Assembly (NCBI RefSeq): GCF_008831285.2
Contig: NC_045148.1
Coordinates: forward strand, 13,494,802-13,558,801
Direction of reading: 5' to 3'
Source of the DNA: Nymphaea colorata
Taxonomy: Eukaryota > Streptophyta > Magnoliopsida > Nymphaeales > Nymphaeaceae
Length of the DNA stretch: 64,000 nt
In this document: in pieces, positions 24,995 to 62,290 of the stretch
Layout of the letters: each line of letters opens with the position of its first letter
Numbering within the stretch: position 1 is the stretch's first letter
Notes under the pieces: generated by a model
Told to the model about the DNA's origin: nothing
Seen by the model: only the letters and a program-made list of their open reading frames with translations
Database searches by the model: none
Made by a program: the position numbers and the translations under genes

Positions 24995-26757
24995 TTATTG
25001 TGGTTCTGTCAGTGTTATCCCTTACAAGCAATCTGTTCTCTCTACTTGTTTCCTGTAAAGAAGCAGGCAAGCTGGGGCTTGGTAGACTTCGGTCAGATTT
25101 AAAATAATCATCAACTTCTGAGATCGTTTGACCTGCATGCAGGATGAACTTAAACTTGGTGCATATTTCTTTTCTTTGGTTTATAATTCCAAAATGCAGC
25201 TGAATTAAAGCATTGATTTAATTCACTTAAAGTGATGATGACCCAGCGCGTGGAGTTTGCGAAAGCACTTGCTGAGCATATCCTCCCCACAAAAAAAAAA
25301 AAAAAAAAGAGCTTGCTTGTCTTGGGAAACTAGAAACAAAGCAGGTTTTAGATAAGAATGTCTTTCTTAGACACAGGAACTAAGTAGAGTTTTGGTTTTT
25401 GGGCACTGTTTGTTATGGAAAGGGTCCTTTTAAAAGTTACAACTCGGAGATGTTACGGTTACTTACCTACGTATCCTTTTTGCTGATTTGATTCGATCGG
25501 AAAACCTTTACTATGAAAATTTTATTCTCCAAACAGCTACGAATCTCTCTCTCAACCAACTCTGTCTGGCTTCATTTTCCTATTTCTGTACCTTGCGCCC
25601 GCTCCTAGCTTCTTGTAGGATGTGGCTTTCTTGTGTATTATGCGGTTTCTTTTCTCTTCTTCTTTTTTGTATGTAGGAGACTTTTTGTTTTCAAATTTTG
25701 GTATGCATTCCTATTTTATCTCTCTCCCTCTCTGTGTGCACCTTACACTCTTTTTCTTTTTTTTTTTAAACTACATAAACGTTATATTTCTCACCGCATG
25801 CATCTATAACTATTTGTCACGCCTTTTGTAAGCATTAGTAAAATGATATCGAAAACAATAAATTTTTATATTGTGCCTCAGTAATTCATCACCACTCTTG
25901 TTGGATAAAACACTTTAGACATTGGCTACGCTGGCATTTGTCAAATTGGATGATGGCAATATTGGACCGCACTAACACATTTCCCTACTCACTTTAGGAC
26001 TATATATAAATTTTCAGCTTCCAATTTTTCAAAGGTTGTTTTGTTTGACCATATAATCGAGTTCTTCGTTCAAAAACCACATAAGTTGCTCGCGCCTTTG
26101 TGATTTATCTCTAGAAAATTGACGATACAGCTTATGTGTGATCTCTTTCTCTCTCCACGTATTCTTTTAATTTATTCCAACTCGACGGACGTACAAATGC
26201 GTTCTGCCATGTATCCTGTAAAAGAAATCATGTGCGTTTACCATTTAGTATTTATGAAAGAAGACATGCAAATTCATCGTATATCAACTGCGACGAATGT
26301 ATCTATGATTCTTTATGCTAGGATTTGTATGATATGAAGCGACATGAAAGTAAGTACGTACTTGGGAAACTAACACATATATTTGTTTAGCTATTCTCAC
26401 TCAACAACAAAAATGTGGAGGCTTGTGCCCCACAAATGTGTATGAAAGCTTAAAAAAGAGGAAGCTATGTTGTAGAATATGGGTTTGGAAGAATGAGACG
26501 ACGCCATCACAACTCGGATTGGTCACCCCATTCGTCCATGTACATGCGGAACGGAAGGCAGAAAAGCGCAAATCGAGAGATAACGCTTTGGAAACAGAAG
26601 GCATTTCCCTTTCTTTCTTAATAACGAACGTCGTTATCCATTTTATTCATCAAAGCTGCGGAGCCGGCGACGTTAGCGTTTAATAGCTCTTGCTTTCCAA
26701 ACGAAAACAGCGAATTCCAATCGTCCCTCCCCTCTGGCTACGTGTGCGGATAAGAAA
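24995..26757. other. Intergenic DNA
   Basis: AT-rich sequence with a poly-A run at 25290-25308 and pyrimidine-rich patches near 25540-25760. No gene, RNA gene or repeat that I can support. Composition begins to change at about 26.4 kb, ahead of the putative leader exon. Confidence 0.4.
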
Positions 26758-27067
26758 ATTTTCTTTTCTTCATCTCTCGTCTTGTCCACAATACCTTCAA
26801 ACCTTCCTTCTAAAACAAGGAAAAAAAGTAAAATAAAAAAATCTAAAAAAATATATTTTTATTTTTTAAAAACCCCAAAACCCACCTTCCCACTCACTCT
26901 CATCTTTTTCCTTCTCTCCTCTCACCACGTTCTTCCTCTGCTTCTTCCTTCCTTCCTCCTCTCTCTCTCTCTCTCTCTCACCAGAGCGCCAACAGTGTTG
27001 CATCAGTAGGAGTTGGGTTCTGCATCCAGCCACCGGCAACGACAGAGTCACGGGGTATCCGCCAGCG
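26758..27067 (+). promoter_or_regulatory. Putative promoter and non-coding leader exon of the micro-exon gene
   Basis: A pyrimidine-rich stretch, including (CT)n at about 26958-26979, is followed by a GC-richer segment without ATG that ends at a donor-like 'cagcg|gtaaatg' (GT at 27068). A second (CT)n run lies at 27120-27143 inside the proposed intron. This resembles a plant leader exon followed by a leader intron of about 1.2 kb running to the coding exons that begin near 28.27 kb. No transcript evidence is available; the link is inferred from orientation and signals. Confidence 0.25.
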
Positions 27068-27304
27068 GTAAATGCATCTACACCTTCATATTAGTAACCA
27101 CCTTATATTATATATAAGCATCTCTCTCTCTCTCTCTCTCTCTATGCCTCTTGGTTGAAAGGTCTCCGCCGTTCGGTCTTAGTTGGACTCGAGGCTGGAT
27201 TCCATACTGTTCCATTCCCTTTTACTTGTCTGTGTCTTTTCGTCTGCCCACGGTGCGCAGATGAGAGGAGAGAGAGGCGCGGGACTCAGAAAACTGAACT
27301 CGCT

Positions 27305-27790
27305 CATTTACTTTGAAATCCTATAGAACTCGGTACCTCCAGGGCCTAAAGGCAACCAACCCTTCCTCTGCAAGCAAAGCAGGCTTGCAAGAAACTGCGA
27401 AATCAAAACAAAGGCTCGAAATCATCGGAAAGGGAGGCTTGTTTCTTGCCCTTGGAAATCAAACTATTGGGCATGTGATTGAATCCTACGCCTCTTGATG
27501 TCTCTTTTCAAACGAATAGATCAGGTGCACTCACGTTATTTAACAATATATACTTTCGAATTGCATTATTTCAAAATGGTTTTTGTTCAAGAAACAGGAC
27601 GTTGTGTTCTTTACGGCCGTGCAACAGGAAGAAGAAAGGCTGCCTGGGGTCGCGCTTTCATGGTACCTCTCAAACGCGCGTTCCTTCGCCCCATGTCCCA
27701 AGGAGCTCGTAAGAATGGCTATTCCTCCACTAATAGAACAATCAAGAGCACCGAAAATTAATAGCTTGTGCTGCATAAATATTTAAATAG
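27305..27790 (+). other. Segment of possible organellar origin
   Basis: Base composition and codon-like texture differ from the flanks: less T-tract and A-tract content, and long overlapping open frames on both strands (+ 27313-27498, 27495-27761, 27583-27786; - 27540-27776). The style is reminiscent of plant mitochondrial DNA, but I could not match it to a named mitochondrial or plastid gene. It lies inside the proposed leader intron of the micro-exon gene. Origin is a guess. Confidence 0.2.
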
Positions 27791-28267
27791 CAAAAAAGAA
27801 CCATGATTTTAGTTAGTTGAAGGTGCTCTCAAATGTTTGTTACTTCCTCCACAAGCCAAAATCGTGTAGAGTTGACGAACAATTGAGTGTCTGCAGTTTG
27901 CCTTCCCAATAAATAAAAATAGAAAAAGCTCCGTAAATTCTGAAATGTCAAACCGTTCACATCTTTTGTTCAAGAAAACTTATTCATGGATGATGCGCAC
28001 AAGCAATCATTGCCTTTGCAAAGCATTTAGTGTCGACGTTTACGTTTCATTGGCTACTGTGACATTGGACCGATAATGCATCATCTTGTCACAAGAAACC
28101 CCCTTCGATGATTTTATAGATAACTTGGTTTAGTTAATTATAAGCCTGTGAATGAAAGTACCTAGAGGCCGTGTGTGAGGAAGCTATTTGCCCTGTTTAC
28201 ATTTTACAAATATGAGGCATGAAGAATGAGTTACCAGGGTAGATCTTTATCGTGTTAGAGCCAATTG

Positions 28268-29128
28268 ATGAAACGGTCAGGCAAGGAGACGGTGAAGCAA
28301 GCCACCATGGAAGAAGGTATATGCTCTTCTAGCATTTGCATTTTTTAACACATCTTTTTTTTTAATCTTTTTGTTTCCTATCATAGTCATCTCGTGTAAT
28401 GCAGGCCGGAGAATGATCATGACTAGAGAAATGACAAAAGAATGCAAGTCAAGCGCCGGTGGAACAGGTGCACATACGAGTGTAGTGTGTGTGTGTGTGC
28501 AAGTGTTGCGATGCCAGATTATCTGAGTAATATGAAGCTACTGCTTTAAGCTCTTTGATGGCATGGTAGGGTTAAGGAGTGTCCAATGCTTAATTTTGGA
28601 TGTTTATTGTAGACCAGAGATCAAGGTTGACTAGAGCACAGGCGACAGAATTCAATAGTGCAGGTCAGCACGCTCTTCTTGCTAGGTTATTTACATGGCC
28701 GCCTTTCCATTACAAGTACAAAACACAGCCACCTTTTCGTTGTTTTGCTTTCATGTTCTCCACAGGGCAAGGACTCGTTGAGGAAGTATCATCACGCAGA
28801 ATTCGAAAAAACGCAGAAGTCAAAGAAGGTACTCTGCAGCTTCTTATAAGAAATTCCTTTTGAGGCGTGGACCCCTTCCACCTGTGCCTCATAGTTTCCA
28901 AATTCTTTCTCTTTACAAAACAGGTGGAGGCCGTGAATCTAGCAGAAAACAACCAACACGTAAGAATGAGAACACAGCTAAGGAAGTTGCCAGAGGTATC
29001 TTATCCGGTTAAACGACGTAGCCACTCCCTTTGTCTTTTCTGCATTAACATTATAAACAGGTCGAGTACTGCAGCTCGGAGGCCAAATGTCTGAAGCCCG
29101 TAAATCTGACAACTATGGATTTGGCTAG
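28268..29128 (+). CDS. Unrecognised small basic protein encoded by six phase-1 micro-exons
   Basis: Exons 28268-28316, 28405-28467, 28613-28663, 28766-28828, 28924-28995 and 29061-29128 are each bounded by acceptor AG and donor GT and join into one open frame of 121 residues with a true ATG. Every junction is phase 1 and the four internal exons are multiples of three (63, 51, 63 and 72 nt). The product is Lys/Arg/Ser/Thr-rich, with no signal peptide or known domain. Exon 2 'RMIMTREMTKECKSSAG' and exon 3 'RSRLTRAQATEFNSAG' align closely; exons 4 and 5 share 'SSR' and 'RKN'. This suggests exon duplication, with glycine or aspartate codons created at each join. An AATAAA-type signal lies near 29329. 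The last exon may instead end at 29099 or 29123 and splice onward. The basic composition suggests a nuclear or nucleic-acid-associated role, but that is inference. An artefact is possible because the exons are short. Confidence 0.5.
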
Positions 29129-29754
29129 GCCAACCTCAATTAAATTTTTTCAGTGCACCCACCCAACGCACACAAGACACAGAAACATGCCCAAGCGCAG
29201 TGCGCGCACCCAGGGAGACATGCATGGAGTTCTTTATTCGCTAAAAACCATATTTTAGATAATCGGATTTAGAGTGAAGCTTTACTTAACATTGTAATAT
29301 GATCCATTAGTTTTGCATTAGTTAAAAGAATAAATAAATAAACATGTAAATGTTTGATTTGATAGATGCTTTGTAATAAATATGCATATCATATATGCGT
29401 ATTATAGTCATGAGATGTCTGTAAGCGGAAAGCTCATAAAACTATGCCTTTCAAATGCTTATGGGATGGCCTTGGATAATAAAATGTAACCTGCGTCACT
29501 TTTACGGTTGAGAAGATTCCTGGTGTTCGAGGGACCTGCGCTCTAGAGTTCTATACTGTTGGGAAAGCGATCATAGGTACAGTAGATTAAACCAGCCGAG
29601 CTGCCAGGTGTTGCACCCTTGAATGGTTTCTCTATTTTAGTACTGAAACATCTAAATAACAAAAATTTCGAATCGTATATTCTGGCTTTAATATTTAACA
29701 CATAAAATTAGCCTCTTCCTTCTTCATGAAACTTGTGTGCATGTCTCATTTTAG

Positions 29755-29857
29755 GATCGGTAACCTCACCCAGTGGAGCTATGTTTTTGGTCTTAGGGGG
29801 TGGACTGATTGTCACAGGAGCCATTATATTTTTCCAAAATCCTTGCAAGGGCCAAAT
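29755..29857 (+). other. Candidate downstream exon encoding one hydrophobic segment
   Basis: After an acceptor 'cattttag', a phase-1 frame reads 'SVTSPSGAMFLVLGGG' and continues 'LIVTGAIIFF', one membrane-spanning-length hydrophobic stretch. The phase matches the exit phase of the micro-exon gene upstream and the entry phase of the RBR exon at 30145. The exon's 3' edge is unclear because sequence from about 29858 on is repeat-like. It could be the C-terminal anchor of the micro-exon gene, an N-terminal anchor for the RBR gene, or not an exon. Confidence 0.25.
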
Positions 29858-29965
29858 GAGATTTTTAATATTGTTAATTTTTATTTTTCAAAATTTCAGG
29901 GGGGACCAAGGCCCCTGCCCCAGCCCTTCCCATGGCTCCACACCTCATCTCATCCCCTGGAAGGC
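29858..29965 (+). repeat. Relic of the same dispersed repeat type as at 1410-1575
   Basis: Degenerate 'aatttttattttt' words are followed by a GC-rich edge with 'ggaccaaggcccctgcccc' and 'catggctcc'. This is the same layout as the relic near 1.4-1.6 kb. It keeps an open frame through to 30038, which is probably incidental. Confidence 0.3.
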
Positions 29966-30144
29966 CTTCACTGACGTTTTTTGTTGGTGCTTCTTATCAC
30001 TTCATTCTATGAAATCCAAGATGAAGACTGCAAGATGATGTGTTGTGCTCCTATTTGTTGCTGCTTCATGTGACTGTTGCTTATCATCAAAGATAGCTAG
30101 AGCATGGTTAACCTGGCTTTTGTGAATTTTAAATGTTGATGCAG

Positions 30145-31696
30145 TTGGCATCCTTGTTAGCAACCACACTGCAAGTAAGATATCACCAACAGTGAGGCCG
30201 CCTAAGTTTTTGTGCAACATTTGCATGGAAAGGAAGCCATTAAATAGGTCGTTCCGACCTGATTGTTGCACACACTTGTTCTGCTCTGACTGTGTTGTAG
30301 TGCACATAGCCACCAAGATACGTGAGAATGTATGCACAATCAGATGCATGGAGTCGGGATGCACGTCGGTTATTGAGCTCAAATCTTGTCTCGGTATCTT
30401 GACTGCCGAGGTCAGTGATCGTTGGGCCGCTTTGCTTAGTGAATCACTGATTCAGCCTGCTGATAAGTACTACTGTCCATTCAAGGATTGCTCAGCACTG
30501 CTGTGGAACGACACTGCAGAAAAGCAGGCCATAAAGGAAGCAGAGTGTCCACACTGTCATAGGCTATTCTGTGCGCAGTGCAAGGTTGGGTGGCATGCAG
30601 GGATTGACTGCCGAGAGTATCGGAGGATGGTGTCATGGGAGAGGAGTGATGATGCCGTGATGAAGAATTTGGCTAATACAAAGAAGTGGCGGAGATGTTC
30701 TAAATGCCAGGTTTACGTGGAGAAGATTTCTGGTTGTCTGCAGATCACTTGCAGGTACTTCCTTTTCCAATTATTAAATTAGAGAATATGGAACCGTGGC
30801 AGAACATCTCATATCTGAACCTGTTTGGATTTTCAAATTTAGCTAATTTAAAGTTGTAGTCATTAGTCCCCATCATATTTGACAAAGCTGCGAGTTTATT
30901 AAAATAATTTATTTAATCAAAAGTTTAAGATTCAGTCTGGAAGGGCCTAACACGGTTAACAGAGTTCAATCTGGTTTTCTGTTATCTCCTTTTTCTAAAT
31001 AATCTTATATCCCTAACATTTCACTGTTTTACTCATCTATATTTCCGAAAAATGAAAAATATGGTACTTCTAATGTACTTGTATGTTTACTCCTTATGTT
31101 CCATAGTTATGTCATAGACATGAACGACAAATGAAAGGTATCTGCTTCTGCTCACTATTTGAATTTGGGTATACCCCACTATTGTCAATAATGGTAACAA
31201 AGGTGAATGGTTTTAGACAAAGATGCAGAGAATTGACCTGTATGGGCGGTATTTAACAATCGGCCTATATGAGCTAAATTTTGCTGACTGATATTTGAGG
31301 TGGCGATAATGGCACTTTGTTGTTTCTTTAATGTCTGCTAAAGAATATTTGTCTATCTGAAAAGGGCTAGACACAGATCTTACAAGTATGATCCTTGTTG
31401 TTGAACTAGAACCACCCATTGTTATTTACAAGCATTGTGATTTGGATCCCTGAAATTGTGTGGAAGTGGTGGATTTGGGTTTGCCAGTTACTTGTTTTTG
31501 CATTGATCTGATGCTGCTGTGATGCAAACAAATACTAAACACTAAACGCTTGAGTTGTGATATGTAGCATTCACGCAGTTCTAATTTTCACTTATATACA
31601 TTCATTTATGTAAATTGCAGGTGCGGCTTCATCTTTTGCTACAACTGCGGGTCAGCATGGTCTCCGCAGCATTACCAATGTCGCGGTTTATTGTAG
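30145..31696 (+). CDS. RBR-type (RING1-IBR-RING2) E3 ubiquitin ligase, 5' end unresolved
   Basis: Two exons are clear: 30145-30754 and 31621-31696, split at 'ITC|RCG' within RING2. They encode about 227 residues ending at TAG 31694-31696. RING1 runs from 'CNICMERK' through 'CTHLFCSDC'. The IBR holds 'YYCPFKDCSALLW', 'ECPHCHRLFCAQC' and 'GWHAG'. RING2 holds 'CSKC', 'SGCLQITC' and 'FCYNCG'. The Cys of 'SGC' (codon 30735-30737) is where RBR ligases carry the catalytic cysteine that accepts ubiquitin before transfer to substrate. The exon begins in phase 1 after 'gatgcag' and no in-frame ATG precedes RING1, so at least one upstream exon is missing from this model. The partner at 37.1-38.7 kb has an ATG exon with a hydrophobic segment in that position. 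Zinc-ligand cysteines look intact, so the domain itself is not obviously broken. Confidence 0.85.
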
Positions 31697-32452
31697 ACAC
31701 TAGATAGTATCCCAAAACTCACCTCGTTCTTACTGATACAAAGTCTATACCCTGCCTTTGATGTTTGAACTTTGAAAGCAAAACTAAGCTAGCTGCGCTC
31801 AAAATATGAAAGCGAACTAAAAATATCTTGATCGATTTTGAGATTGAGATTGAGTTTTAATGTTAAAGATTGAGCTGAGTTGAACTAAAAACACCCAGCG
31901 ACTGCTTTTATTTTGCCTGCTTCGGTTATAAATACGTACCAGTTTCCTTTTGATTGCCTTGGTTTACTGATCTCCCTCTTCCCGCCCTCTTTCTGGGTTG
32001 CGATTGAACAGCGTATGCTGATCCACCTTCAAGGCTGGCAAGGCAAATTACTCTCCTTTATAGTAGGATTACTCTGGTCAAGCACTGCTTGGCCTAGCTT
32101 TCTCTTCTCTCCTCTTTGAATCTTCTTTTACTGTTGTTTTTCAAGTTTTTTTTTTTTGGGTTACCTTGTATGCTCGGTGACACCTTGTCACTAAAGTTTG
32201 TTAATGTATTTTCATTTTGTTTGGTCTCTTTCTCTTTCTCTTTCTTCTTGTGGTAACAGAGAGTAGACTCTCAGTTGCTTCAGGTAAGAACATTTTTATT
32301 TGAGGCAACATTGTCGGCCAGCTCCTTAAATTCAAAGGGCCTTACTTGGAACTCGAAAATTTCATGCCTCCCTACATCAAGATCAAGTCTGTGTGCAGAG
32401 AATCATATGAATTGTCTTATCATTTCAGACACTAAAAAACAGAGAAATGGAC

Positions 32453-35008: not shown

Positions 35009-35387
35009 GCCATTTCAATCGTGAACCCAAGAAAGCCGAGACGACCAGAGGCAGATTGTAATGTTTGTTCAGCCCATCTTTGGCCTAAAACTGAAATCCC
35101 TCTCCTCACACACTGCTGACATTGGGGGGTTGTCTGTTATATTTAAATGTTGAGCGTGCACTTCTGAAAATATTAGAAGTTGACCGCCATTACTCAACTT
35201 CTGAAAATAGGCCATTTCAAAAGAGAAACAGAGGAAGGCAACTCCAAGGTAGCCGTAGTTCCATAGTTCTCTCGCTCAACAGGCTGGTCAGGCCGCTGAC
35301 CAGAGAGCAAGAAGGAATCTCCGATTTCCTTTCGTTGGATCTTCGGTGCCATTCTTATCTTGAGTTATAGTTCTCTTCCCAGGCAGT

Positions 35388-35756
35388 ATGCCGCCGTCTA
35401 TCATACTCGTCCTCTCAAGCCTTTCCGTCATCCTCTTGATCATCTATGTCCCTGCTGCGTGCTCCCAGGATGAGACGAACCACAGTAAGAAGTGTTACCG
35501 TGCCACCCATGCGTTCTATGGCATTAGAATGCTCCCCACAGAATGGTTCTGCCATGCTAAGTCCAGCAACATGTCTCAAACGCTGATACGCGAATCACGA
35601 TCATCAACAGTTCAATTCTCCAGCAGGAAGCAGATTGGTGGCCTTTCAGACGAAAATAAGAGGAACGACGTGGCCGATTTAATGGCTCTTGTGGCCCCTG
35701 TTGCCTGTTCCAGAATTCGATGGTGGAGATGCGTGGCTTTATGCATAGGCAGGTAG
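35388..35756 (+). CDS. Possible small secreted protein (122 residues), unrecognised
   Basis: A true ATG opens a frame with a classic signal-peptide layout: 'MPPSIILVLSSLSVILLIIY', then 'VPAACSQ' as a plausible cleavage site. The mature part is polar, contains six cysteines (the sixth counted being near the end) and ends in a basic, Trp-containing tail, 'RIRWWRC'. An acceptor-like 'ttctcttcccag' lies seven bases before the ATG and a TATA-like 'gttatatttaaatg' lies about 250 bases upstream, so a leader intron is possible. I do not recognise the family and the cysteine spacing matches no peptide class I know. Chance remains possible. Confidence 0.35.
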   Translation: MPPSIILVLSSLSVILLIIYVPAACSQDETNHSKKCYRATHAFYGIRMLPTEWFCHAKSSNMSQTLIRESRSSTVQFSSRKQIGGLSDENKRNDVADLMALVAPVACSRIRWWRCVALCIGR

Positions 35757-37145
35757 ACCACAGGCTGGTACCAGAAACTTGTATTTCTCTCTCGCCTTCT
35801 AACGGTGCTTATCTATGTCTTCAAACGTAGGAAACAGAATAACCTAAAAGTTTAATCAATTAATAAACGATGTTCTTGTTTGTGACTGCCTAAAGCTGCC
35901 ATATCAAAACTAAGGGGAAAGGAGTTCAGTTTCCGTATAGCGGTTTTCAAATTGTGTGAAAGTCAATTTCGGAAAATAAATTGAAGGAAACCTTGCTGTG
36001 GTAGATTCTCTCTTTGCACTGGTTTTATGACGTGTATACACACTCTTGTTCTGAACTGAATTATATATTCAATGTCAGCTCTTTACATGGTATCAGGATC
36101 GTCCTGTTAATTGCTCGTTCTGCTTCATGTTTTTATGCGGCTTTGCAAATAAGATGTCCATGCGTTCGCCACTGTTTCGTTGTGCATAAGGAAGGAAGGA
36201 ACTCCTTCAGTTTGTTCTGTTTCTCTTTTATCAGAAAAAAAAAAAAAGGAACTTCTAAACGAACACAAGAAAAGAAAATACGCAAACAAGAGAACAAGCG
36301 TTGTAGTGGTTCAGTCTATGAAGAGACCTACGTCCACTGCCAGAAGGCTCTTTCTTAGCCTGCTTCTCTGTATTTCATTTATATCGTTCTTCCCTGTTAC
36401 GATGTTTTTTTTTGGTTTGTAGACCCGCATTACCTTGCTTGCTAAGCCTGATTTGGTGGACTCGATTCCTTAGAGATAAGGGCACCACAAATTTCCAGAG
36501 CATTACGTGTGCGATCAACCTCCACCTGAACTTTGATGACCAAATGCCGAAAATCCCAATAATGAAATTTTCCTTGTTGCTGAAACGGATGCTTCCCCTC
36601 AATTTCTCCACTTTCACTTCCTCTGTTCTAGTCACTAGCAAGAGATAATGTCTATTCATATCTGTACAAGGAAGGTATATTCCTAGCGATACAGAACTAC
36701 TGGTCACAGATGTGACTATGGATAGGGTGTTATTTGCAGGTTATCAGCAGCATCAAAGAAGCTATTTTTTCGTGAAGGAATGGTGACAGTGGGTGAAGGA
36801 AGCAGTGTTCTATGCTTCCAGTTTTTGCAAACAATGATGCGACGCATTCCTTTTCTTGTTTTGTTTCTTTGTTTTCCTGTTTTTGGGCTCTGTCTCTTCT
36901 CTGTTCATTTCTGTACATAATATTTTTTTTGGCAATGCAAGAAGGGTGCTTCCTCCCAGTCGCAGTCTATATTGGAAGAACAAATTAAGAATGTGATTTT
37001 TCCTTTTAATTTCTGTTCAGGCGTTCATTGCGAATCTTTTTGTTGACTTTTCATTTGTCTGAATTTCTTCAAGTTCTTGACAAATGTGATTCTTAACTAT
37101 TTCAGCAAAGATGGGTCTAGGCACCAGGAAGCTTGCACAATTTTG
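35757..37145. other. Intergenic DNA upstream of the second RBR gene
   Basis: AT-rich with an A-run near 36235-36247. A 34-codon frame at 36318-36422 is noted separately. The frame of the second RBR gene stays open upstream of its proposed ATG, back to 37077, and an acceptor-like 'ctatttcag' ends at 37105, so an additional upstream exon is possible. Confidence 0.35.
36318..36422 (+). other. Short ORF with a type II membrane-anchor-like sequence
   Basis: A 34-residue frame with a true ATG reads 'MKRPTSTARRLFLSLLLCIS' and then a hydrophobic run to a stop at 36420-36422. The basic head followed by a single hydrophobic stretch resembles the anchor of Golgi glycosyltransferases, but no catalytic domain follows in any frame that I can recognise. 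It may be a relic, a first exon or chance. Confidence 0.15.
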
Positions 37146-38705
37146 ATGGACGCTATTGACTTGATGTTGATAGCAATAGTGTCATGTGTTCTGGTTTACG
37201 ACTACCGAACTCGTAAACGTGCAGCTTTACCACCCAATCGTTCAGGTACTTTTATCTTTCCTCATTTCTCTAGAGGAAGTTTGCTGTACAACTATAGTAA
37301 CGATATCCCAAGTGTATGTTGTCTGCACAACTACAGTAATGATGATCTATCCTATTGGAAGTTGTCTGTGCATCTGTAATTATTTATACGTAATAGGAAG
37401 TTGTCTGTGCAACTGTAATTATTTATACGTTCCAATGGCATCCATGATAGAACTTTCCAATAGCATGAAACTACAGCTATATATCTACCATCAAGCAATG
37501 TCACTATTTCTTCTCGTGAGAACCCTAGAGTGGCAGTCCTGCTACAAAAAATGTTGTACTCGTGTTATCTTGAATTGCTTAATTGCCTGCTAATTTGTTA
37601 TCAGAAAATTTGTTTTGGCAGAAGCATGTTTGAAAGTGCTGTAGTGAACGTTATACTCTTTATTTCTACTTTAGTGTACTTTACTAATAAACTACAGCCA
37701 ACCAAACAAAAGATGTGACAGATTCAGGGAATAGCTCACAAGTCTTTTTCTGCAACGTCTGCATGGAGCGCAAGCGAGTAGAGAAATCCTTCAAAATTCA
37801 GGACTGCGGTCATGAATTCTGCTCTGAATGCATCATAGAACATGTGAAAGTTAAAATAGGGGAAAATTCAACGATAGTTTGGTGCATGGAGGTTGGATGT
37901 CAAAGTCAAATCTACCTGGAGTCATGTCAACGTATCCTAAATGCAGAGTTGCTGGAGAAATGGTCGATGATGATCAGTGAATCATTGATCCTTCCATCGC
38001 AAAAGTTTTATTGTCCCTTCAAGAATTGCTCTGCTCTATTGTGGGATGATACAGAAGGAAGAGAGGTGATAAGAGAAGCAGAGTGCCCCTACTGTTGGAG
38101 GCTGTTTTGTGCTCAGTGCAAGGTGGGTTGGCATGCTGGAATGAGTTGCAGTGAATTCCAAACCATGAGGAATTGGCTAGCTGGTAAAGATGAAGTTATG
38201 ATGAAAGATATGGCCAATCAGAAGAACTGGCAAAGGTGCCCAAGGTGCAAGTTCTACGTGGACAAGGTCTCTGGTTGTCTTCAAATCACTTGCAGGTTGG
38301 TTCATTGGTGCTAGTGTTGCTTAATTATGTAAAGGGCTCAATTGGTGGTGTACCTTTAATTAAGACAAACCAAGTTGGCAAAAGGCCACCCACAACTAAT
38401 TTTTATTCATCATGTGCTTTTCAAGTGGGTCACAAATAGCAGGTGACCGATGAAGGGTGGACGGCAACCAAGTTCACCACTACAATGTTCAGTTGATCCT
38501 AATAAATGACAAACATAGTCCAGAATTCATTGTATTGGTCACTGCCTGTGGTGCACCCAAAAGCATAAAATTTAATTGTCTTTCTACATCTCATTATAAC
38601 TGATCTACGTAACGGTTTGTCATTGTTAGGTGCGGCTATCAGTTCTGCTACAGGTGTGGATCATCTTGGACTCCAAAACATTATCAGTGCAAACTAAAAA
38701 GGTAA
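37146..38705 (+). CDS. RBR-type E3 ubiquitin ligase with an N-terminal hydrophobic segment
   Basis: Three exons, 37146-37245, 37698-38295 and 38630-38705, encode 257 residues with consistent phases (phase 1, then phase 2 at 'ITC|RCG'). Residues 5-19 are hydrophobic ('LMLIAIVSCVLVYDY') and are followed by Arg/Lys, suggesting a membrane anchor. RING1 begins at Cys52 in 'CNVCMERK' and contains 'CGHEFCSEC'. The IBR has 'FYCPFKNCSALLW', 'CPYCWRLFCAQC' and 'GWHAG'. RING2 has 'CPRC', 'VSGCLQITC' and 'FCYRCG', with the predicted catalytic Cys at residue 227. The domain order and intron position match the RBR gene at 30.1 kb, so the two are paralogues. The start is the least certain part. A donor 'aaaag|gtaaca' sits at the stop, so an alternative last exon is possible. 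At 257 residues it is short for an RBR protein. Confidence 0.85.
37355..37432 (+). repeat. Two-copy 39-bp tandem repeat in the first intron of the second RBR gene
   Basis: The unit 'aggaagttgtctgtgc..' to '..taattatttatacgt' occurs twice in direct succession with a period of 39 bases and few differences. A looser earlier copy of 'gttgtctgcacaactacag' lies just upstream (37317-37340). Low divergence implies a recent duplication. Confidence 0.7.
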
Positions 38706-49033: not shown

Positions 49034-51302
49034 TCAATAAACACTACCTGCCACTGGCAGGTCATCAAAGCTCCAAAGATCCATCGGCCCATCCTGGGTA
49101 ACATCTCCATTGCACAGGGTTTCAATGGATTGGTCAGGACTCCCTTCCAAGTAGGGGATCTGAAGGAACTTCATATAGGTCTCGAAAGCAGACAGCTCCT
49201 CTGATAATTTCACAGCATTTTCTTCAACTGCCTTGACACCTTCTAATGCCTTCTTCTCATCCCCATTTCCATTCAGAGCAACATCAGTAAACTTTGATTC
49301 CTCACACTCAACCGTGGGCCCAAAGAAAGCAGAAGATATCTCAGGTGGAGTTTTGGGATCTCGCTCCCACGAGAAATCAGAACAATCAAACGAATTACTA
49401 CCCTCATCAGACTGCATAAAACCTTTGAATTCACTTTCAGGATCGGAGAACAAACCTGTGAAACTGGGTTTATTCATCATATAACCACTGTCACCATTAT
49501 AACCAAAACTTCTGCACAGATTTGGATCAGTGGACTCCCCAAAGCCCGATTGCATCTTAGCATTCACAGACACATGAGAGATCATTTTATTACCGGCCTT
49601 CTTAAGGTTGTTCTCCTTGGCTGACTGAATCCTCTGTTTCTGTGAAGAAGGAGACTCATCAGGGAAGTTCACCTTAGCTTTCTTACCGCGAATCTTCCGT
49701 GCTTCAGCATCATAGGCTCTTGCTGCCTCCTCAGCAGTATTAAATGTCCCAAGCCAGACACGAACACCCTTTCTTGGGTCTCTGATCTCAGCAGCCCATT
49801 TGCCCCAGGGCCGCTGACGGATCCCCCTGTACATGTTCTTTCTCTTTCTCTTTGCACTCCTTTCAGCAAGGCCCGTGAACTCTGGCGACTTGACAGCAGA
49901 CCCATCTGCAATCCATACAACAAGCCAGCTAACTGTTAGTAATTTGCTGGCGGAAATGTACAAAGTAAAAGAGAAGTGTCGCAGAACCAACGGAGCACGA
50001 GATGCCAGGTAAATTTCTGTAGAAAGGAAAATCGTGTACAGAACCAAACAAAGGAGTAAGAATTTGCCTTTTCCTCTTCAGAAGAGAACATAAATTGACA
50101 ATCAGTCCATGAAATCCAAACAACAAAAGCAAATCCGCACCATTCGCTTCTTAATATATATTATATAATATGACAAAGGAAATTACTACCAAAAAAATAA
50201 CTTCGAGCCCGAAAAAAAAAAAAACCTAGAGCGGAAGAGACCCGCGCAGCGTACCTAAACAATTGAAATCGTGTATTTCATCCACGATTTTGGGCACAGA
50301 AACAGCGGAAACCGAAAGGTTCTCCTTGCTAAGCTGGGCAAACCCTTACAAATTTCAGACAAAGAAAAGAGGAAAAGAAAACAAGAATCTATGAGTAGTC
50401 TACCTTCACAATTAGAAAAAATTTCAAACCGACAGCCACTTCCTTGTTTGACATCAAAAGACTTTCTTAAAGTTCAGCATAATTTTTTTATAAACCCCCC
50501 CACCCCCCCAAAAAAAAACCTTCAAAAATGAAAAATGTCAAAGCAAGCTTAAATTTCCTGCATAAATTATAAAAGCGGAAAAAAGAAACATGAACTCCGC
50601 GAGAATCGGCATCTCCTTTTTGCCATCAATGATCGGAGGAAGTGGTGGGGTAAAATGATCCAAAGAAGCGGGGAGGGGTAGCCATGAATGCAACCAGCCA
50701 AGACACCGCCTCCCCCGGATCACTATCGCCTTCATCGATTGCATCGGTTTGAACACAAAAGGATCAGCAGAGCCAAAATCGCAGGGTAACAAGGGGAAAG
50801 AGGAACAAAAAAGAAACGAAGATTTTCCCCTCTTCCGTTAGAGCTTACCGACCCAAGTTTCCAAAACACCATCTTGCTTCCACTCTCCTACTTCCAACCC
50901 CGGCCAAGTTTTTTTTTTTTAAAAAAAAAAAAATCAAAAAACAAAAATTCCAAAGGGAGCAGCTTCAAGAGAAAAACATCACGAAAGTAACAAAAAACCA
51001 AAAGAATCGTCTTTCTAATGCTTTAGGAAAGTGTGAGCGCCATTCTCACCGGAGGAGGGCGAGGAAAAGGCGGGATTCGCGAAGGAGAAGGGCTTGATGT
51101 CGACGACCTCCTCCTCTTCGTCGGACTCGTCCTTGAACTCACGGAAGTCAGCCTCGAAGTCGTCATCGACGCCGATCACGGGCTGCTTGACGGGCTTGGA
51201 GGCCTGGTAGTCGGGGACAGCACGCAGAAACTGCTCGGCGGCGAGCCTCCTTCCACGAGCAGTGCTCGGGATGAAGTCGGAGATGATGGCACCTCCACAC
51301 AT
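49034..51302 (-). CDS. Group VII ERF transcription factor with N-degron (RAP2.12-like)
   Basis: Two exons on the - strand, 51302-51050 and 49905-49034, join at a GT-AG intron of 1144 bases in phase 1 and encode 374 residues. The protein begins '[12 protein letters not shown]', the hallmark of ERF-VII factors. In this family Met is removed and Cys2 is oxidised in oxygen, leading to arginylation and proteasomal decay, so the protein accumulates in hypoxia. The acidic '[16 protein letters not shown]' segment is a conserved group VII motif. A basic 'KRKRKN' precedes the AP2/ERF DNA-binding domain at residues 110-167 ('[20 protein letters not shown]'...'WLGTF'...'AARAYDAEA'), which binds GCC-box type sites. 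The C-terminal half is Ser/Asp/Glu-rich, as expected of an activation region. The intron lies between the degron part and the AP2 domain, as in related genes. No defect was seen. I cannot say which Arabidopsis paralogue is the orthologue. Confidence 0.96.
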
Positions 51303-59260: not shown

Positions 59261-59344
59261 TGTGCACTCATAAAACAACGTACCGAGCAACCTCGATGGC
59301 GCTGTGCACTCATAAAACAACGTACCGAGCAACCTCGATGGCGC
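59261..59344 (+). repeat. Two identical 42-bp tandem copies
   Basis: The unit beginning 'tgtgcactcataaaacaacg' and ending 'caacctcgatggcgc' is present twice, head to tail and apparently identical. The period is a multiple of three, so frames on both strands stay open through it. Confidence 0.85.
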
Positions 59345-60930
59345 CATGCATGCGTGTCTCTTTAGTATTCGAGAGTCGGGAACACATGGCCCATTGCTTG
59401 CCTCGTGCGCCGCTCGTCTCGGGGTTTGCATATTTTGTCTCTCTCACACAACGCAAAAGATATCTCGCTTTCAGAACCCTTCCCTCGGAGATGTATAACT
59501 TCCACTATTTTACTCCGTTAGTCAATCAAACCACCAGTGTATTTCTCCATCATAGGTTAGAAAAAAAGACAGTTTCGGCACAATTTTCGAGGTATTGCTC
59601 GCTCTCCCATGCCATGAACAATATGTATGGAAAGTATAAATGCTTCGTCAATGGTGTCGCCTAAATAGTCGGGGGAATTTACTGTTGTTCGTTTGTCTGT
59701 GGAGAAGGAGAAGGAAAATGAAAAAGCAAGAACGGGAACCTCCGCCTTTGCTGATATCTGTTTTGCGGGTACAAGTTTCACTTGTTTGGTTGCAATGGCA
59801 TGCTAATAAACTTGGGAGGCTGGGATCCACGAGGTCCTTACAATGGGTCTTGTTGCTCTGCCTTTCATTTGCTCTGCCTTTCGGCTCCATGTGGTGGTGG
59901 ATTGGTGGCTGCACGACAACACCAATGATTGAAACGCCATGGGGACCTCTTTCATGAAATGGGCTCCCTAGCGATCGACCGGCCGGCGGACTCGATCCTG
60001 CCCATATGATAGATATGCCTACAGGCTTTCGAAATAAAAGAAAGTTAGTCGGCTTGATGGAAAGTTTAAAGTCCGGTTATCTCAGTTCGATTTTTTCATG
60101 AGCAATATTCTTATAAATTTGTAAATGGTTACAAACACAATCTCAAAACATCCCCTTGTCTAATAGCCTCTTTTTTTACAACTATGGATCATACCATTTC
60201 AGCATTTCGTTTCTCGTGACTGAAGAGCCAACGTTGAAATGACTTCTTCCATGTATCCGCTGATATCTGGTATGCAGTCAAACCAGCCTTCCTCGGCTGA
60301 TAGACTCCAGTATTTGGCCTTAGTAGCTAATTGGATACTCAAATGTTCACATTTAATCTGTTGTGGCCGGTATAAGGCCCGGTGACACATTTAGTTGTCT
60401 AATTAGAAGTAGTTTGAAAGGAGATGGAATCGGACACGTAGTTTTTAAGTATTATTCCAATACGAGATGTAATGTTCTACTTTATGACGTTGGAGGAAAG
60501 TAGGTATTATTCATGGGTACGGACTATGGAGTAGTAGGTGATCCGAACCCTCTTGATGGCGATGCATGTTAAGTCCCGAGGACGCGAGCTGCTTTAGGAA
60601 AGGAATTACCAGTAAGTTTCATGTGCAATATTAATTGCATTACACATTATTTAGAACTCAACCTTGGTTTTCTTTTTTTGGAAATTAGATCTTTAAGGGG
60701 CCACCCGTAGATGTAGTTAAGAAAAAAAAAAGAACTGATAAAATTTCCCTTAGATCATGCGTTTACCTAGAAAACTTTGTAAATATAAGCGGCTGAGACT
60801 CATAAACCATAGCACAACGAACACGAGGGAACTTAATTTTTCCTTGAAACGTATATACCTAAGAAATTTTCTTTCCAGTTCTCCTAGCCTTATGTTGGAA
60901 CGAACTCGTAGATTCACTCCCAGTTGCAGG
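59345..60930. other. Intergenic DNA between the 42-bp and 66-bp repeats
   Basis: Open frames at 59260-59664, 59640-59957 (+) and 59648-59914 (-) have no recognised product. Around 59.7-59.95 kb composition is GC-richer, but splice signals and domains are absent. Confidence 0.35.
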
Positions 60931-61128
60931 CAACTGTATCTTTTTCTAGAATTATATAAAATTTATTCACAAAATTTTTACTTGTACAACTTACTACAAC
61001 TGTATCTTTTTCTAGAATTATATAAAATTTATTCACAAAATTTTTACTTGTACAACTTACTACAACTGTATCTTTTTCTAGAATTATATAAAATTTATTC
61101 ACAAAATTTTTACTTGTACAACTTACTA
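60931..61128 (+). repeat. Three identical 66-bp tandem copies (minisatellite)
   Basis: The unit begins 'caactgtatctttttctaga' and ends 'cttgtacaacttacta'; copies start at 60931, 60997 and 61063. They appear identical. Because 66 is divisible by three, each strand keeps a repeated 22-residue open frame ('QLYLFLELYKIYSQ...' on +, 'SCTSKNFVNKFYI...' on -). The surrounding + frame runs 60757-61269. Identity of copies indicates very recent expansion. Confidence 0.9.
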
Positions 61129-62290
61129 TCATGTGAGGCCCAAGGGGTCGACGTTCCTTTCGTAACAGCCACACAAATTCTAAAAAGGATTGCCACAGCG
61201 GGATTTTGGGACCAACCTGGGCCATATTGGTGCTCAAATTTTCCATGCGCCAATATGGTTAATGAATAAAATACACTTAGTTTACATTGAAAAGAAAACT
61301 TTTTTGTTAAAGACCAAATTTGAAATGAGAAAAAATAAAAAAAGCTTTAGAAATTAGAAGGCATTCTGCTTTAATGAATTACCAAAATATCATTCTCTCT
61401 TTAACTATGCACGGTGCACCCGGCACGCACGTAACTTTCTCTCATTTTAGAATATACTAGTCAATAAAATTGGGAGACATGTACGAGACACGAACCAAAC
61501 TGAATAACGTCATCTCATTTAAAGAGCTGCAACTGTGCTTCAAGTGGGAGAAGGCGGCCATCCTTGCTGGCTGCAACAGTAGTTCTACACAAAAGGACGT
61601 TCCCTTGCGCAATTAAAAGCTCCTTTCTCTATCAATTTAAATTCACGGATAGCGGTGGGCTGCAGTTCATGAGGCTGTAGTGTGCATGAACATGAGCAGA
61701 TAAAGTAAGGCTTTAGTTGCTGCGTACATTATCACAAATATCGAGCAGCAAACTTCCAAGAGTTGAGGGCCTGAAACCAAGATTTCCTACTGTTGGCTTG
61801 AGTTAAAAATTTCAACACGCAATTGTTTCGGCATTGGAAATTAATCATCGTTTTCCCACCTGTTCATATGATCAAACTTGCAACTAGCTACAATCTCAAG
61901 CTGTTGACGACAAATTATAGTGAGTACTTGGAAACCACCCATTTTGTTTTTCATTTTAATACGAAGCGAAACAAACATGTCATTTTCCTTTGAGGTCGCA
62001 ATCCTGATCTTCATATCGATCGCCAGGACTGTAATCAGTGGATACGCAGCAGTTATATCATCCAGGAAAAAACAAAGAACAAAAAGCAAAAGGTGGGAGG
62101 TGGGTGGGTTGGGCCATGCACCATGTGGGTGGGACACGCTAGCTAGCTGGGCTTGAATTGATGATGGTGAAGAAATGAGTGCATGAACCTAATTTGTAGT
62201 TTTACCGGCCTTCTTTTCTTGTTGGCCGAGTGGTAAAAAACTTTTTTATATTCCTTGGGGATGCGTGAGGACAAGATCCCTCTCTTTCTT

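Follow-up and report, generated by a model that had tools for sequence, protein, structure and literature searches.

A 64,000-nucleotide stretch of DNA from Nymphaea colorata, referred to here as the window and covering bases 13,494,802-13,558,801 of contig C11, contains six short segments between positions 28268 and 29128 that a sequence-only reading had joined into an unrecognised gene of phase-1 micro-exons. Water lilies branch off close to the root of the flowering plants. The locus raises the question of whether these segments are real coding exons and, if they are, whether they make up a gene of their own or the 5' end of the gene that lies downstream.

All six segments lie on the forward strand and were found where they had been placed. 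Exon 1, the first coding exon (28268..28316, 49 nt), begins with an ATG at 28268 and ends at a donor scoring 3.90, in the 99th percentile. Four internal exons of phase 1-1 follow: exon 2 (28405..28467, 63 nt; acceptor 5.13, donor 1.66), exon 3 (28613..28663, 51 nt), exon 4 (28766..28828, 63 nt; acceptor 4.28, donor 1.94) and exon 5 (28924..28995, 72 nt; donor 2.69). Exon 6 (29061..29128, 68 nt) is the last and ends in TAG; its acceptor scores lowest of the five (2.87), and the intron before it is the shortest. The introns measure 88, 145, 102, 95 and 65 nt, and all five run from GT to AG. Every join is in phase 1, the internal pieces are all multiples of three, and the frame is free of stops from a real ATG through 121 codons to the TAG, all as previously described. 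Other parts of that description need correction. The segments measure 49-72 nt and not 39-72 nt, since a 39-nt form would need exon 6 to end at 29099, where the donor is weak (-0.69), and this is incompatible with a product of 121 amino acids. An AG before and a GT after each segment is present at all internal flanks; as expected of terminal exons, an AG is missing before the first segment and a GT after the last.

The joined product has a mass of 13.5 kDa, a pI of 10.41 and a GRAVY of -1.25, and its N-terminus, MKRSGKETVKQ, is hydrophilic, so the earlier description of a small and basic protein holds. An in-frame TAG at 28256-28258 lies a short way 5' of the first ATG. A second in-frame ATG in exon 1, at 28307 within GCCACCATGG, has, by the usual rule for start contexts, a better context than the one at 28268 and would give a product of 108 amino acids. 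Exon 5 has an alternative donor after 28959 (28959/28960) that scores 2.58 vs 2.69, is also in phase 1 and would shorten the exon to 36 nt. No good acceptor adjoins exon 1 on its 5' side, the best being 0.5 at 28238. Further upstream on the same strand, positions 26950-27708 are CT-rich and contain a strong donor at 27068 and a strong acceptor at 27598, which may mark 5' untranslated exons of the chain's gene or of another transcript.

It had been argued that five successive compatible joins would rarely arise by chance. With bare AG and GT this argument fails: when phase-1 exons of 35-80 nt were linked with no strength threshold in 60 dinucleotide shuffles, 55 gave at least four linked exons. 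The chains obtained under this bare rule had three to nine linked internal exons, with at least seven in 30 of the 60 shuffles, and the real region gave seven. Such frequent chains favour the view that there is no gene here, only a chance series of AG and GT picked out by eye. What is rare is joining by strong sites, and it is in this respect that the chain exceeds chance. Among all GT and AG sites of the window, the five donors rank in the 93rd-99th percentiles and the five acceptors in the 96th-99th. With thresholds of at least 1.6 for donors and at least 2.8 for acceptors, set just below the weakest used sites and chosen after the sites were known, the region yields four linked internal exons, with exon 5 ending at either 28959 or 28995. 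The same filter applied to 1,500 shuffles gave no exon in 857, one in 595, two in 47, three in 1 and four in none. Across 210 tiles of the window (both strands), a chain of four occurs once, in the tile that holds the exon chain, and the best of the other 209 reaches two. Two is also the most that any of 514 tiles at 37 loci elsewhere in the genome reaches; these loci are no random sample, having been selected on account of two gene families and of RBR relatives or other matches. The exons contain 14.8% T vs 38% in the introns, and when segments of equal length were placed at random 20,000 times, a T content this low was reached in none.

The filtered result depends on splice matrices that reflect general knowledge of splice sites, with six homology-anchored RBR sites as their only check (donors 3.79, 3.84 and 6.93; acceptors 6.47, 1.11 and 6.09), and when the thresholds are rounded to the weakest sites the chain falls from four exons to three (28613-28959). 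These points, together with the post hoc choice of thresholds, speak for a chance chain; the shuffles, the tiles, the T contrast and a likeness between the exons (described below) speak against it, and make the absence of any gene very improbable. The chain is almost certainly not a product of chance. The practical lesson is that by-eye counts of AG/GT joins are no evidence; what counts as evidence is how strong the sites are, what the base composition is and how far the exons resemble each other.

Real exons may belong to a spliced non-coding transcript with an accidentally open frame. Against this, shuffling within exons (20,000 trials) left this frame open in 0.16% of trials and any frame open in 0.5%, that is, a P of 0.0016 to 0.005 for an open frame through five joins given the exon composition, and the other two forward frames of the joined exons contain 6 and 12 stops. 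Four internal exons that are all multiples of three would occur by chance about once in 81. Codon usage is uninformative between the two. A codon table was trained on 28 of 30 open reading frames, two under 295 amino acids being dropped, and gave the chain's frame a z of 2.08, compared with 2.47 and 2.08 for the RBR exons of the window. The 28 training pieces, which are not independent of the table, scored 2.76-6.14, and the chain lies below nearly all of them. Ninety non-coding pieces gave a mean of 1.07 (s.d. 1.17, maximum 4.47), a range that includes the chain. One other frame has a higher per-codon score, and synonymous usage shows no preference for the chain's frame. Non-coding status is consistent with the codon scores and with the lack of protein relatives in Pfam, PDB and the plant's own genome; we nevertheless consider it improbable. 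The open frame and the exon lengths favour coding, and the chain probably does encode protein. The earlier interpretation is partly supported: the strength of the sites, the base composition and the absence of stops across five joins give good support to real coding exons, but that these form an independent gene is not established.

The product is unrecognised in the sets that were searched. It has no Pfam profile match at E<=10, and its sole PDB match, pseudopaline dehydrogenase at E 1.9, was rejected as meaningless. A protein search of the own genome returned the locus itself and no second copy. Five pattern matches on viral contigs were found, none of them confirmed, and window positions 26000-32000 gave no Rfam match at gathering thresholds. 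At the DNA level, three short matches besides the locus were found in the genome, on C13, C7 and C2, and a duplicate locus for a constraint test was dropped as a candidate on that account. The C13 match (C13:9128644-9128703) is a 60-bp, 93% identical copy of window 29018-29076, where intron 5 ends and the first 16 nt of exon 6 follow; a search within 8 kb of it did not find the remainder of the chain. The C7 and C2 matches cover about 50 bases each in a TG-rich part of intron 2. The product may loosely resemble cyclin N-termini, KRP inhibitors, shugoshin, LEA and securin-like proteins, and no relationship to any of these is claimed. Among the top-ranked matches in the open-access literature no title or abstract describing the locus was found, which does not imply its absence from print or annotation.

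The exons resemble one another. By simple local alignment the likeness of exons 2 and 3 is only suggestive (DNA p 0.007, peptide p 0.027, among 15 pairs). A register test, in which ten pairs were aligned without gaps from their acceptors or from their donors, gave stronger values. In the acceptor register, exons 2 and 3 share 29 of 51 bases (p<5e-5; codon shuffle 1e-4) and exons 2 and 6 share 29 of 63 (p 4e-4; codon shuffle 3e-4), the latter likeness spanning the whole length, with 17 of the first 39 bases and 12 of the last 24 identical. All ten acceptor-register z-scores are positive, with a sum of 14.2. This sum was reached in 0.02% of 5,000 codon shuffles (pooled P 0.0002); no shuffle equalled either the best pair or the second-best. 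Draws of five T-poor segments of real coding sequence served as a second control; after 58 of 20,000 draws with more than 75% identity were dropped, the sum was reached in 0.05%, the best pair in 0.24% and the second-best in 0.01% of 19,942 draws. In the donor register only exons 2 and 3 gave a low p (0.029), and no likeness of exon 1 to exons 2-5 was found. The introns showed likeness in one of 20 comparisons (introns 3 and 5, 3' side, p 0.002). These alignments suggest that one phase 1-1 exon was duplicated in tandem long ago; the case is best for exons 2, 3 and 6 and unproved for exons 4 and 5. Exons 2, 3 and 6 at least would descend from one exon of about 60 nt, and such a history would account for the uniform phase and for lengths that are multiples of three. 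In kind the chain is nothing unusual, and its apparent duplication history is a tidy one. If this history is true, the locus is a compact case, in a water lily, of gene growth by the copying of one symmetric exon.

The next coding feature found on the same strand lies about 1.0 kb 3' of exon 6. It is an exon of an RBR (RING-IBR-RING) ubiquitin ligase, RBR1 (30145..30754, forward strand), that covers a putative RING1, the IBR domain and the start of RING2. Its phase-1 acceptor scores 4.44, which makes it a candidate continuation of exons 1-5. The last exon of RBR1 (31621..31699, end approximate, forward strand) reads CGFIFCYNCGSAWSPQHYQCRGLL followed by a stop. The IBR domain is over the Pfam cut-off (PF01485, E 1.4e-10), and residues 10-203 align to ARIH2 structures (chains at E 1e-10). 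RING1 has no Pfam RING match at E<=0.01, whereas a second ligase of the window, RBR2, has zf-C3HC4 at 5.7e-6; RBR1 does align through its RING1 part to RBR2 and to a relative on C4, and its alignment to ARIH2 begins at residue 10. The ligase is intact and evolves under constraint. A pseudogene is not favoured, with the exon open and, by NG86, a dN of 0.38 to RBR2 with dS saturated. A short decayed copy of the RBR1 exon sequence, 75-87% identical, is present at C11:11083437-11083719 (L042 1438-1597 and 1676-1720).

Within the RBR1 exon itself, no ATG was found before the RING. A scan of the gap for a first exon, covering single pieces with GT donors, returned 17 ATG-started pieces ending at a phase-matched GT, and all 17 have poor donors, at most -0.93, compared with 2.69 for exon 5. 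Two acceptors in the gap were rejected: one at 29154 (3.2) by inspection, no downstream donor being judged usable, and a strong one at 29900 (6.1) as a likely decoy because it lies inside a dispersed repeat. This repeat occupies window 29776-29938, between exon 6 and RBR1, and seven similar stretches occur on C1, C3 (two), C9 (two), C6 and C13. The phase-1 acceptor of RBR1 and the lack of a good single-piece first exon in the gap mean that exons 1-5 may be the 5' end of RBR1, a reading that we hold tentatively, at somewhat less than an even chance. Joined to the RBR1 exons, exons 1-5 give an open frame of 327 amino acids, or 340 with a 39-nt exon 6 inserted.

Exons 1-5, once spliced, would then code for a disordered arm, rich in Lys and Arg, at the N-terminus of the downstream ligase. 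The exon 5 donor, at 28995 or 28959, would be joined to the RBR1 acceptor at 30145, both in phase 1, to yield the 327-residue protein, and exon 6 would act as an alternative last exon that gives a short, ligase-free form of 121 amino acids. Since each internal exon is an in-frame cassette, the frame would survive the gain or skipping of exons, and the length and charge of the arm might vary in this way with the catalytic part held constant. Perhaps the arm acts in nuclear location, or in contact with a substrate or nucleic acid. The splice sites, phases, open frames, contrast in composition, likeness between exons and intact RBR1 exon are observed, whereas transcription of the chain, its junction to RBR1, the alternative end, exon skipping and the role of the arm are inferred.

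Several observations suit a separate gene better. Exon 6 is a member of the exon family, resembling exon 2 over its entire length, and ends in TAG. Five AATAAA motifs follow it, at 29329, 29333, 29337, 29375 and 29478, where about one per kb is expected from base content. The T-skew seen in the introns of the chain is missing from 29129-29740, although the whole gap 28996-30144 contains 32% T and 28% A. Agreement of phase alone has a chance of 1 in 3. The paralogues give no support to a fusion: the relative on C4 carries an acidic N-terminus in one exon with the RING, which differs from the arm encoded by the chain, and RBR2 likely has a first coding exon of its own (37146..37245, forward strand; donor 3.79, phase 1), with a hydrophobic start and unrelated to exons 1-5, ahead of its ligase exon (37698..38295, forward strand; phase-1 acceptor 1.87). 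Both RBR2 exons are used here for comparison only. The different N-termini of RBR2 and the C4 relative also indicate that the phase-1 junction before the RING may accept varied N-termini. The 5' part of RBR2 (window 36365-37774 and 37873-37973) is copied at C5 (locus L043 4078-5532) with 76-89% identity; this copy has three stops in the matching stretch of 46 amino acids and looks like a decayed duplicate.

These observations can be read as a stand-alone gene of six exons, closed by the stop in exon 6 and polyadenylated by about 29500, that encodes a basic, disordered orphan protein of 121 amino acids; RBR1 would be separate, with a first exon that escaped recognition. The strong-site chain, the T contrast and the open frame suit it equally. 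The weak acceptor of exon 6 and its short 65-nt intron count against it, as does the fact that an intact RBR1 is then left with no credible first exon in the gap, and relatives supporting a conserved small protein were found in none of Pfam, PDB and the own genome. A stand-alone gene is a real contender and a little less probable than the 5' end of RBR1, and an alternative last exon would reconcile the fusion with the TAG of exon 6 and the AATAAA motifs. We lean slightly towards the RBR1 5' end, with the stand-alone gene nearly as likely. If either is true the gene model would be corrected: a truncated-looking RBR ligase gains an N-terminus, or a small gene that was searched for and left unmatched is added.

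Taking exons 1-5 as the 5' end of RBR1, the product can be set beside plant RBR ligases. The Pfam IBR domain of RBR1, its alignment to ARIH2 and the possible in-frame joining of exons 1-5 agree with this family, whereas nothing corresponding to the arm encoded by the chain is present in RBR2 or in the C4 relative. The available portion of one account of RBR ligases makes no mention of such an N-terminal arm (PMC2904391). A broader proposal is that a tandem array of phase 1-1 mini-exons, variably spliced, supplies an adjustable basic disordered arm to an RBR ligase, with a ligase-free form made through the alternative last exon, and is an architectural plant counterpart of micro-exon genes; we regard this combination as unlikely.

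Other genes built from small exons offer partial parallels, as far as the available portions of the sources go. Aphid bicycle genes likewise have several small internal exons of one common phase; almost all of their internal exons are in phase 2, with about 17 exons per gene on average, whereas the chain is all in phase 1 with six exons, and no kinship is claimed (PMC9168663). Schistosoma micro-exon genes have exons of 3-81 bp, introns up to 5 kbp and secreted products (PMC10526429). The chain shares with them short exons in series (49-72 nt) and differs in lineage, in its introns of 65-145 nt and probably in its hydrophilic basic product, and again no kinship is claimed. Plant micro-exons are likewise short exons, which annotation tends to miss; a run of same-phase duplicated exons is not described in the available text of the two plant studies (PMC6600660; PMC8831610). 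One defines plant micro-exons as 15 nt or less (PMC8831610). The other, on rice, uses 51 nt or less and reports that 40.7% of rice micro-exons are multiples of three (PMC6600660). The term micro-exon was thus applied loosely to this chain: by the limit of 51 nt only one of the four internal exons qualifies (exon 3, 51 nt), and the others (63, 63 and 72 nt) exceed it (PMC6600660). With its alternative donor at 28959, exon 5 would fall below 51 nt.

Elsewhere in the window, a forward-strand frame at 35364-35756 is uninterrupted, has a hydrophobic, signal-like start after its first ATG and gives no Pfam match at E<=0.01; a small secreted protein is possible. A frame on the reverse strand at 49034-50077 contains an AP2 domain (Pfam AP2, E 1.1e-12) and probably encodes an ERF-type transcription factor. 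The open frame 60754-61269, which has no Pfam match at E<=0.01, contains three perfect copies of a frame-preserving 66-bp unit at 60931-61128. At 59261-59344 a 42-bp unit occurs in two perfect copies.
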